DNA from: Shimia aestuarii | Lineage (GTDB): Bacteria; Pseudomonadota; Alphaproteobacteria; Rhodobacterales; Rhodobacteraceae | Direction: 5' to 3' | Length of the DNA stretch: 64,000 bases | Assembly (NCBI RefSeq): GCF_022814865.1 | Contig: NZ_JAKVRD010000015.1 | Location: 1-64,000 of the forward strand | Part shown: piece after piece, positions 37,233 through 40,471 of the stretch | Layout of the letters: each line of letters starts with the position of its first letter | Position numbering within the stretch: position 1 is the stretch's first letter | Position numbers and translations under genes: made by a program | The notes under the pieces: model-generated | The model's input: only the letters and a program-made list of their open reading frames with translations | The model's database searches: none | What the model was told of the DNA's origin: nothing

Positions 37233-37462
37233 CCCCTGCGCCGGGCGCACATGGGCGCATCTCCCAGCCCTCTTCCCTCCGTTAGAGACAACATTCCGAT
37301 CCCGCCCACGGCCCGAGACATGCGTGTCTCTTGAGGGCTCGCAAACGGCTGTGATAATCATGCCACGTTGGTGGATTCCCTAAAAATGCCGTGATTTCTT
37401 CTTTTCTGCGCCTGCGAGATATGCAATGCGTTCATCCGTGAACACATCTCGAGTCCCAGACC

Positions 37463-39541
37463 ATGGCCTTGACCACCGCGACATCCAAACCGGAAGAGCA
37501 AGATCAGCTCTTTCGCCTCCTGCGCCAGCTTGACCTTGCGCCGGAAGCCTCGCAGCGAGTCACGGCAGCGGCGCTTGGCATATCGCTTGGCCGCCTCAAC
37601 GCTCAGCTTCGCACAGCTGCCGAGACTGGTTTGATCAGGATTTCCGAACGTTCCGGGCCGGACAAGCGACAACGCTTTGCCTATGCGCTCACCGCGCGTG
37701 GCGCTGCGGAGAAACTCCGCCTGACCGACCAGTTCCTCGCCCGCAAATTCGACGAATACGACGCACTCCACGCCGAATTGACCGGCACGACCAGTGGCCC
37801 TTCCCCGTTCAAGTACAGGACAAAACTCATGCAGAACAATCTCGCGCCCATCCCCGAACTCTACGTGTCCTACGAGAGCTCGCAGAAACTCAAAGTCGAA
37901 GCCGCCGATCTCGTCAGCCATGACCTGACGCCGCGCCAGATCTGTGATCTGGAGCTTCTGATGAATGGCGGGTTCAACCCGCTGAAAGGCTTCCTGTCAG
38001 AAGAAGACTACGACAGCGTCGTCGAAAATATGCGCCTCGCGGATGGCTCGCTCTGGCCCATGCCGATCACGCTCGACGTGTCCGAAGACTTTGCCGAGTC
38101 GCTCGAGCTTGGTCAGGATATCGCATTGCGCGATCAAGAAGGCGTCATCCTCGGCACCATGACCGTGACCGACCGTTGGACCCCGAACAAATCGCGCGAA
38201 GCCGAGAAGGTCTTTGGCGCCGACGACGAAGCGCACCCTGCCGTCAACTACCTGCTCAATCAGGCTGGCAAGGTCTATCTCGGCGGCCCGGTCACCGGCA
38301 TCCAGCAGCCCGTCCACTATGACTTCCGCGCCCGTCGCGACACGCCGAACGAACTGCGCGCCTATTTCCGCAAACTCGGCTGGCGCAAGGTCGTGGCCTT
38401 CCAGACCCGCAACCCGCTGCACCGTGCGCACCAGGAACTCACCTTCCGCGCCGCGAAAGAAGCGCAAGCCAACCTTCTCATCCATCCGGTTGTCGGCATG
38501 ACCAAACCGGGCGACGTGGATCACTTCACCCGCGTGCGCTGCTACGAGGCGGTACTCGACAAGTATCCGGGTTCGACCACGACCATGTCGCTCCTCAACC
38601 TCGCCATGCGCATGGCAGGCCCGCGCGAGGCGGTCTGGCACGGCCTGATCCGCAAGAACCACGGCTGCACCCACTTTATCGTTGGCCGCGACCACGCAGG
38701 CCCCGGCAAGAACTCGGCAGGCGAAGATTTCTACGGCCCCTATGACGCGCAAGACCTGTTCCGCCAGCATCAGGAAGAGATCGGCATCGAAATGGTCGAT
38801 TTCAAACACATGGTCTATGTGCAGGAACGCGCCCAGTACGAAGCCATCGACGAGATCGCGGACAAGGATGACGTGACCATCCTCAACATCTCGGGCACCG
38901 AACTGCGTCGCCGCCTGTCGGAAGGCCTCGAAATCCCCGATTGGTTCTCTTTCCCCGAGGTGGTCGAAGAGCTTCGTAAGACCAAGCCGCCGCGTTCGCA
39001 GCAGGGCTTTACCGTGTTCTTCACCGGCTTCTCCGGGTCCGGCAAGTCGACCATCGCCAACGCGCTCATGGTCAAGCTGATGGAGATGGGGGGCCGTCCG
39101 GTGACGCTTCTCGATGGGGATATCGTGCGCAAGAACCTCTCGAGCGAGCTTGGCTTCTCGAAGGAACACCGCGATCTCAACATCCGCCGCATCGGCTATG
39201 TCGCTTCGGAGATCACGAAGAATGGCGGCATCGCCATCTGTGCCCCGATCGCGCCCTACGCCACCACGCGTCGCGCGGTGCGCGAAGATGTCGAACAGTT
39301 CGGTGCCTTCATCGAGGTCCATGTCGCGACCTCCATCGAAGAATGCGAACGCCGCGACCGCAAGGGCCTCTACAAGCTCGCCCGCGAAGGCAAGATCAAG
39401 GAATTCACCGGGATTTCCGATCCCTATGACGTTCCCGCCAACCCCGAGCTGAGCGTCGAAACCGAAAATGTCGACGTCGACAACTGCGCGCATCAGGTGA
39501 TCCTCAAGCTCGAAAGCATGGGCCTCATCGCGGCGCAGTGA
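37463..39541 (+). CDS. EPS-associated MarR-like domain fused to sulfate adenylyltransferase / APS kinase
   Basis: A 692-residue open frame. Residues about 10-105 match MarR-type EPS-associated regulators (ALGISLGRLNAQLRTAAETGLI; AEKLRLTDQFLARKFDEY). From Met 123 on it is a full bifunctional Sat-CysC: ATP sulfurylase motifs QTRNPLHRAHQEL (about 313-325) and GRDHAGPG (about 408), then APS kinase with P-loop GFSGSGKST (about 521-529). It makes APS and PAPS from sulfate. No stop separates the parts. An internal ATG at 37829 has AGGA eight bases upstream, so a stand-alone 570-residue enzyme may also be made. Domain calls are firm; the fusion needs protein evidence. Confidence 0.9.
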   Translation: MALTTATSKPEEQDQLFRLLRQLDLAPEASQRVTAAALGISLGRLNAQLRTAAETGLIRISERSGPDKRQRFAYALTARGAAEKLRLTDQFLARKFDEYDALHAELTGTTSGPSPFKYRTKLMQNNLAPIPELYVSYESSQKLKVEAADLVSHDLTPRQICDLELLMNGGFNPLKGFLSEEDYDSVVENMRLADGSLWPMPITLDVSEDFAESLELGQDIALRDQEGVILGTMTVTDRWTPNKSREAEKVFGADDEAHPAVNYLLNQAGKVYLGGPVTGIQQPVHYDFRARRDTPNELRAYFRKLGWRKVVAFQTRNPLHRAHQELTFRAAKEAQANLLIHPVVGMTKPGDVDHFTRVRCYEAVLDKYPGSTTTMSLLNLAMRMAGPREAVWHGLIRKNHGCTHFIVGRDHAGPGKNSAGEDFYGPYDAQDLFRQHQEEIGIEMVDFKHMVYVQERAQYEAIDEIADKDDVTILNISGTELRRRLSEGLEIPDWFSFPEVVEELRKTKPPRSQQGFTVFFTGFSGSGKSTIANALMVKLMEMGGRPVTLLDGDIVRKNLSSELGFSKEHRDLNIRRIGYVASEITKNGGIAICAPIAPYATTRRAVREDVEQFGAFIEVHVATSIEECERRDRKGLYKLAREGKIKEFTGISDPYDVPANPELSVETENVDVDNCAHQVILKLESMGLIAAQ

Positions 39542-39561: not shown

Positions 39562-39595
39562 AAAAGGGCCGTCCTTCGGGGCGGCCCTTTTCTTT
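39562..39595. terminator. Bidirectional terminator after sat-cysC and the GT10 gene
   Basis: AAAAGGGCCGTCC and a matching GGGCGGCCCTTTT arm around a short TTCG loop are flanked by A- and T-runs, so it can end both convergent transcripts. Confidence 0.8.
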
Positions 39596-39604
39596 TGGGG
39601 AGGG

Positions 39605-40471
39605 TCAACTTGACGCGAGAACGGCCTCGGCAGCGCGGGTTTCGAGATCGCCCCAGTGGGCCGCCTTTTCCTTGATCGCACGCAACGCCGGCAGCTTCTT
39701 GGCAAAGAGGGTCTCATCCGCCGAGCGGATCGCCTCGTGCAGCTCGGCCGCACTCTTGCAGAGGATCATCCCCTCTGCATCCATGAAGCGTCCGATATTG
39801 GGACAGCCCCAGTAAATCGGCACGCATTCGCAGAGGATCGCATCGACAAGTTTCTCGGTAAAGTAGTTGGGCTCGCGCACGTTCTCGATGATGACCGAAA
39901 AGCGATAGGGGGCAAGGCCATCAGATTTGCGATCAAAGGGCTTATAACCGCGCCCCATGACATCCAGCGCGATATCTGCCTGCGCGGCCCATTCCACGAT
40001 GTCGTGGCGCAACACATGCCCTTCGAGATCACGCTTGGACGAGGCAATCAGCGAGATGTTGGCACGTTTGGTCGTGTCGAGGTCGCGCCATTCGGGCACC
40101 CAAGTGCTCCCGAATGGAAAGAAAAGCCCGTTTGGGATCGTGGCAAGGAAATCCTCCTGTGCCGAGAGCACCCGGAAGAACCGGCGATGCGACCAGCGCA
40201 GGTGGCGGAAGTGGCGCGCTTGAACGGCTTGCGGCTCGACCACCATCATGGAAACCTTCGCGGGCGTTCCAAAAGAGGGGCGGAAATGCACGCTCCCCTT
40301 GGGATAGATGACAAGGTGATCGTCCTGCCCCATATCGCGGAGCGTCTTGCCACGCAAACGGTCAGGTTGCCCCAGCGGCCAGTTCAGCGCATCGAGCGAA
40401 AAGCGCCCCGGACGCGCGCCGAGTTTGGTCCCATAGGGTAAAACCGCGACTGCGGGGGCGTGCTTGGTCAT
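39605..40471 (-). CDS. Glycosyltransferase family 10 (fucosyltransferase-like) protein
   Basis: A 288-residue protein whose C-terminal half matches the GT10 (alpha-1,3-fucosyltransferase-type) fold: YRFSVIIENVREPNYFTEKLVDAI and the following CVPIYWGCPNIGRF are typical donor-binding stretches. The N-terminal half is variable acceptor-side sequence. The sugar and acceptor are not known. It stands alone, convergent with the sat-cysC fusion; no polysaccharide cluster is visible around it. Confidence 0.85.
   Translation of the reverse strand: MTKHAPAVAVLPYGTKLGARPGRFSLDALNWPLGQPDRLRGKTLRDMGQDDHLVIYPKGSVHFRPSFGTPAKVSMMVVEPQAVQARHFRHLRWSHRRFFRVLSAQEDFLATIPNGLFFPFGSTWVPEWRDLDTTKRANISLIASSKRDLEGHVLRHDIVEWAAQADIALDVMGRGYKPFDRKSDGLAPYRFSVIIENVREPNYFTEKLVDAILCECVPIYWGCPNIGRFMDAEGMILCKSAAELHEAIRSADETLFAKKLPALRAIKEKAAHWGDLETRAAEAVLASS

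Follow-up and report, generated by a model that had tools for sequence, protein, structure and literature searches.

Trigger enzymes, that is, enzymes with DNA-binding activity that control genes of their own pathway, are an established class. For E. coli, BirA, NadR, PepA, PutA and PyrH are named in the sections of PMC8249747 used here, in which PutA is described as binding the putA-putP spacer only and no Sat or CysC example is named. Two further described systems are close to the present locus. Bifunctional enzymes of ATP sulfurylase (Sat) and APS kinase (CysC) form the family NF004040, with PDB 2gks and 3cr8 and the fungal ATP sulfurylases 1i2d and 1m8p among the known structures, and the free-standing MarR_EPS regulators (TIGR04176), named for EPS loci, are encoded by separate genes. 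In the window, as we call the whole stretch of 64,000 nucleotides of Shimia aestuarii DNA that was analysed, one gene encodes a MarR_EPS-type winged helix fused in frame to Sat-CysC (Table 1). A description of a MarR-Sat-CysC fusion was not found in the literature searched, and the comparison suggests an apparently undescribed example of a trigger enzyme. It would resemble the E. coli enzymes in the predicted control of its own pathway by an enzyme with DNA-binding activity, and it differs from them by a conserved in-frame internal start for the headless enzyme.

The frame of 692 codons is open throughout, without a stop, and places the catalytic domains and a DNA-binding-type domain of their own in one chain. 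The N-terminal part matched TIGR04176 with 80.8 bits at residues 12-107, below the curated cut-off of 88, and two other fused family members scored 92.9 and 90.5 bits. An earlier note on this DNA had described the domain as typical of EPS loci; the profile match agrees with the domain type, at a score below the cut-off, but the setting does not, as Pfam analysis of the window identified trxB and an Lrp/AsnC-type gene upstream. On the 692-residue protein, Pfam gave a marginal HTH_24 (22.3 vs 21.9 bits) followed by PUA_2, ATP-sulfurylase and APS_kinase. Residues 121-690 represent a full member of the bifunctional family (1045.9 bits against a cut-off of 669; profile positions 4-571 of 572), with both the Sat and the CysC domain complete. 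The catalytic motifs are intact, Q314-H323 as well as G522 and S524-T530 being invariant in 44 aligned sequences; we take the former to be the Sat motif QTRNPLHRAH and the latter region to be the CysC P-loop GFSGSGKST. The best PDB relatives span residues 142-690, and in none of the 36 matched PDB sequences does the best stretch (of more than one in three entries) start before residue 130, so that none of these shows a winged helix there. NadR is composed of an HTH, a nucleotidylyltransferase and a P-loop kinase, and the fusion appears to follow the same order in outline, from DNA-binding head through nucleotidylyltransferase to P-loop kinase. As it uses a winged helix, ATP sulfurylase and APS kinase in another pathway, this likeness would be an analogy and not homology. 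A second Sat or CysC match was not found in the own genome, in which the sole other match was a free-standing winged-helix paralog on contig 21.

Table 1. Positions of the fusion gene, its parts and its flanking elements in the window.
Feature	Position	Strand	Remarks
Promoter-like block (CTTTTC 37401-37406; TGCAATGC 37422-37429)	37401..37429	+	conserved upstream columns
Candidate operator TGCGTTCATCCGTGAACACA	37427..37446	.	core GTTCATCCGTGAAC at 37430-37443
Long ORF, winged helix-Sat-CysC fusion	37463..39541	+	692 aa, 77.5 kDa computed
Winged-helix domain, TIGR04176-type, residues 12-107	37496..37783	+	profile match; median dN/dS about 0.07
Linker, residues 108-122, constant length	37784..37828	+	residue 107 to 123 = 16 in 101/101
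Predicted internal ribosome-binding site AGGA (codon 119 plus base 1 of codon 120)	37817..37820	+	invariant 101/101
Short ORF, 570 aa, Sat-CysC alone	37829..39541	+	64.0 kDa; ATG 95 / GTG 6, n = 101
ATP sulfurylase (Sat) and PUA-like N part, residues 130-506	37850..38980	+	PF14306 130-281, PF01747 292-506
APS kinase (CysC), residues 512-689	38996..39529	+	PF01583 514-665; NF002059 512-689
Intrinsic-terminator-like hairpin, U-rich 3' side	39562..39591	+	-24.2 kcal/mol, z -4.45

Similarity searches with the fused query collected the loci L001-L111, of which 108 of 111 were fused; owing to this way of collection, the count is evidence for conservation of the frame and not for the frequency of the fusion. 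From the 108 loci 101 distinct proteins were obtained, all of them free of in-frame stops and with a distance of 16 residues from residue 107 to residue 123. It had been suggested that a frameshift error might lie at 37780-37840, and a sequencing or assembly artefact, or two genes that lack a stop by chance, would account for an apparent fusion, as such errors do occur in single genomes. All 101 distinct sequences, which come from many genera, share the stop-free frame and the constant spacing; this removes both readings, to which we assign next to no probability, and the fusion is genuine. Relatives with a stop between two intact parts were likewise not seen: apart from one decayed locus (L116), the relatives examined had the same fusion or no detectable upstream winged helix. 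The winged helix is under purifying selection, as indicated by its median dN/dS of 0.073 (127 usable pairs); the medians of Sat and CysC were 0.051 and 0.033, and dS is close to saturation.

All 24 congeners searched contained the fusion, and among 11 other family members 3 were fused, 7 had Sat-CysC only and 1 was without a match. When 248 family genomes were sampled, 232 had a match and 16 had none; among the 150 matching genomes listed (of 232), 51 were fused, as defined by a match beginning at residue 12 or earlier, and 99 were unfused, so the winged helix is dispensable within the family. Some of the unfused family genomes had internal stops or long open frames at this place (G268, G196, G092, G237, G113 and others). 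A check for hidden fusions by tblastn and by an unfiltered winged-helix profile run on 1.3 kb of upstream DNA detected the domain, among 42 loci, only in L118 and L153 (intact) and in L116 (in pieces); the profile search found no winged-helix remnant upstream of the 39 unfused loci, and further hidden fusions among them were dismissed. A TIGR04176 search of 299 genomes of the phylum and 385 of the class returned long fused frames (690-705 aa) only from the window's own family and no fusion outside it, the longest open frame there being 343 aa. The 80 fused loci from the contig search are a selected set, the best 80 of 585 relatives, and their record titles name Rhodobacterales organisms with one exception. 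This record (L074), titled Nocardioides marinus, bears a typical roseobacter fusion locus and is probably a mislabelled or contaminated assembly.

An internal ATG with an AGGA site had also been pointed out before, together with the idea that one gene may give two products, and both have gained from the comparison. The ATG lies at 37829-37831, about where unfused relatives begin. Among the 101 distinct fused proteins the codon at this position was ATG in 95 and GTG in 6, all 6 Val variants being GTG, and AGGA was found at bases -12 to -9 in 101 of 101, though the residue whose codon starts at -9 varies; start codon and site are thus conserved together throughout. Codon 119 was AGG in 101/101, compared to 0 to 10 AGG in other columns with Arg in at least 80 sequences, and its deviation from pooled codon usage (5.32 bits; 605 columns) exceeded the next value of 1.64 and the median of 0.14. 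As selection at the protein level cannot pick a codon, conserved codon 119 is most simply explained as part of a ribosome-binding site. Predicted Shine-Dalgarno pairing was stronger for the internal than for the long start in 99 of 101 sequences. From this pattern of conservation, the gene very probably gives two products of 77 and 64 kDa; the masses proposed before (75 and 62 kDa) are to be replaced by computed values of 77.5 kDa for the long and 64.0 kDa for the 570-residue short form. The internal start might be seen as a vestige of the unfused gene from which hardly any protein, if any, is made, the long form alone being of importance, and a start at about the same place in unfused relatives means that the site could have been inherited. 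However, inheritance alone would not hold AGGA and the rare AGG in 101 sequences whose other codons vary widely, all Val variants kept GTG, and AGGA occurred at exactly the internal position in none of 37 unfused loci. In L116 (genome G205) the winged helix is in pieces and an exact operator is absent, while the internal AGGA-ATG is kept, the Sat-CysC frame is open to its end and no other start is evident. The G205 assembly is a draft, about 80% complete, in which the decay could partly be an assembly error, and we therefore give this natural experiment moderate weight. Taken together, a vestigial start appears distinctly improbable, and we prefer two products from one message. A value of 64.39 stands in the apparent mass column for a Sat/CysC entry of R. 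litoralis, which may come from a fused or an unfused gene, in the part of a proteomic study used here (PMC4103551).

The upstream regions of fused genes share a palindrome with the core GTTCA-N4-TGAAC, extended to TGYGTTCA-N4-TGAACRCA, which is located about 33 bp before the long start (30-40 bp before it in 88/99). With the same rule for all loci, an exact core not more than 520 bp upstream of the Sat-type start, the palindrome was present at 101 of 103 fused, 0 of 39 unfused and 0 of 1 decayed loci. Of the two fused exceptions, L050 is on a contig that ends within the site and L104 has one mismatch. Fisher's test for fused against unfused loci gave 6e-33 with relatedness ignored. Each of the 25 genomes of the genus, the own one included, had GTTCANNNNTGAACRCA at the fused gene, and 7 occurrences elsewhere were counted in the whole set, with 2 matches of the reversed control; symmetric TGTTCAYNNRTGAACA matches were obtained in 14 of the 25, 13 of them at the fused gene and 1 elsewhere (G005). 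In a set of 38 genomes that lack an intact domain, the decayed G205 among them, GTTCANNNNTGAACRCA occurred at 7 places, never at the sat gene, with 2 control matches. The own genome has one further exact site inside a dksA-like ORF, which we regard as background since the 10-base pattern occurs twice there and the reversed pattern equally often (2 matches). The 7 other sites of the genus are scattered, and of three inspected one is inside an ORF and two (L168 and L176; G017:C29:165138 and G011:C1:888372) are a second GTTCA-N4-TGAAC that two congeners have in the same stretch near a purC-like gene, named by eye; this region is possibly a small, lineage-specific second target. At several fused loci (L045, L070, L073, L077, L080, L084, L086-L089, L093, L095, L096 and L098) a weaker copy of the palindrome with 2-4 mismatches of 14 was observed about 29-34 bp upstream of the main copy, or about three helical turns, a spacing at which binding may be cooperative in some species.

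In 99 aligned upstream regions the columns -29 to -26, -8, -7 and -4 to -1 relative to the palindrome are conserved. This block directly before the palindrome could be the promoter, and it was not picked by a simple sigma-70 consensus scan. As the promoter-like block directly precedes the palindrome, repression is favoured. Activation of the gene by its own long form, or reading of the palindrome by a different protein, for instance a free-standing MarR_EPS paralog, would also be conceivable, and we judge either to be unlikely. Free-standing winged-helix paralogs do exist in the own genome and in G006, G015 and G023, and the paralog gene of G023 (L203) itself bears the exact N4 site, but 21 of 25 genus genomes have no paralog match and still possess the site at the fused gene. 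Moreover, loci that lack the fused domain also lack the site (0/39), the decayed L116 has no exact copy, and the location of the site after the promoter-like block suits a repressor. The palindrome also coincides with the expected beginning of the leader of the long mRNA and might act there as an RNA hairpin rather than as a DNA site; with a stem of 5 pairs that should be weak, a loop that differs in length between fused (N4) and free-standing genes (N5), and a distribution that tracks a DNA-binding domain, this is very improbable. A DNA site read by the long form for repression is hence the reading that we follow below.

Similar sites were found at free-standing MarR_EPS genes, which share a homologous winged helix with the fusion. 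The sample consisted of 17 places plus the own-genome paralog (L002), giving 18 genes. All 11 genes from other classes (L188-L192, L194-L198 and L200) had GTTCA-N5-TGAAC at the estimated start or ahead of it, the effective number being smaller than 11 as several are close relatives, while it was seen at 0 of 2 genes from the own class that belong to other families. Of the five paralogs within the family, only that of G023 is preceded by an exact GTTCA-N4-TGAAC. GTTCA ranked first of 1024 five-base half-sites (12 of 18 genes, next best 3), and a similar GTTCA-N-TGAAC site thus precedes 12/18. Due to the different spacer, N4 compared to N5, the fused and free-standing sites are alike but not identical. 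The palindrome probably belongs to the MarR_EPS family of DNA-binding proteins, and GTTCA-N5-TGAAC can be proposed as the predicted binding site of TIGR04176 regulators. A role in gene control for the winged helix, suggested earlier as part of one chain with sulfate activation, is supported by a palindrome that tracks both the fused domain and its free-standing relatives of other classes. The own-genome paralog (G000:C21) adjoins a glycosyltransferase-like and an integrase/transposase-like ORF, both named by eye.

In a tree of the enzyme part (230 columns; 47 of 84 inner forks open, bootstrap unsettled) fused and unfused proteins interleave; well-supported branches require no fewer than 7 changes and parsimony requires 17, and the association of operator and domain has therefore several tests. 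A branch with 100/100 support sets the fused winged helices apart from the free-standing ones, in agreement with a single origin of the fused domain, though it is no proof. In the simplest history, a MarR_EPS-type gene under its own control would have inserted between trxB and sat-cysC and then lost its stop, while its operator was retained and the enzyme start stayed functional inside; head and operator seem to have been jointly lost several times since. trxB was near 77 and lrp near 69 of the 80 fused loci, and trxB was visible at 22 of 37 unfused loci in the short flank fetched.

We consider it probable that the gene encodes a self-regulating (trigger) enzyme for sulfate activation that is made in two lengths, an explanation with five steps. 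The first, which is well supported, is the in-frame fusion of a MarR_EPS-type winged helix to Sat-CysC, probably once, in the window's family. The second, for which the conserved internal start argues strongly, is that the enzyme start was retained inside and that the mRNA would give an enzyme of 77 kDa that binds DNA and one of 64 kDa without the head. Third, as the comparison of loci suggests, the winged helix, presumably as a dimer, is predicted to bind a single operator, TGYGTTCA-N4-TGAACRCA after the promoter-like block of the gene that encodes it, and hardly any other place in the genome. Fourth, judged from the operator position, binding would block transcription, the 77-kDa dimer sitting over the transcription start and the 64-kDa form supplying enzyme, so that the entry enzyme would limit its own level. 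The fifth step is speculative: ligands (ATP/sulfate, APS or PAPS) might change the state of Sat/CysC and thereby loosen or tighten DNA binding, and short subunits in mixed oligomers might set the number of DNA-binding heads per complex. Repression by the long form and sensing of APS/PAPS by the Sat-CysC core are predictions of this scheme.

The last step has a credible competitor, towards which we lean somewhat less than half-way, namely that the long form, as an autorepressor, signals no more than the amount of enzyme and that its Sat/CysC part senses no ligand. An operator at the own gene and at little else agrees with this, and an ordinary autorepressor would fit the same anatomy; against it, the constant spacing of 16 residues hints at a mechanical coupling of head and enzyme, and the comparable PutA responds to its substrate according to the sections of PMC8249747 used here. 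Returning to the sensing enzyme, its fullest version can be offered only tentatively: a captured EPS-type head may have made the genome's only found Sat-CysC a sensor-repressor, with a long chain that reads APS/PAPS through the Sat-CysC core and acts as repressor at one operator, and a short chain that dilutes the DNA-binding heads in mixed oligomers and in this way sets the gain of the loop, and domain and operator may be one module that was gained together and repeatedly lost together.

In a large, mostly marine group of bacteria, the sulfate-activating enzyme thus often has a DNA-binding head, a matching site at its own gene and apparently two lengths, and on these grounds it is probable that the enzyme regulates how much of it is made. 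For the entry reaction of sulfate assimilation in this major marine group, a candidate regulator can thereby be named together with its target site and two forms of the protein. If true, sulfur metabolism would have a trigger enzyme, and the gene would be a clean example of two starts that separate 'enzyme' from 'enzyme plus regulator'. Regulators of sulfate use in Rhodobacterales did not come up in the part of PMC5343134 used here. In Ruegeria pomeroyi, genes of sulfate assimilation are stated to be greatly lowered by DMSP, and in what appear to be the lowered columns of the table the values are 0.03-0.09 for cysJI and cysH and 0.44-0.60 for Sat (PMC9769926). The difference would fit separate control of cysH/cysJI and Sat in this strain, which may or may not carry the fusion.

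The own genome has one PF01507/PAPS_reduct gene (CysH), beside sulfite reductase on a different contig. An exact operator copy was not found at the CysH and sulfite reductase genes of this genome, and a wider sulfur regulon was rejected. CC and CxxC motifs were recognized by eye in this CysH, which we take to be typical of APS reductases; if it is an APS reductase, PAPS would not be required for cysteine and would be free as a signal or for sulfation. With trxB upstream, a strong hairpin after the stop, which is absent from the output of a simple terminator scan, and a convergent gene beyond it, the fusion gene seems to be a single-gene unit. The convergent gene (39605-40471, minus strand) is glycosyltransferase family 10-like and is probably unrelated, as it is found near only 8 of the 80 fused loci.
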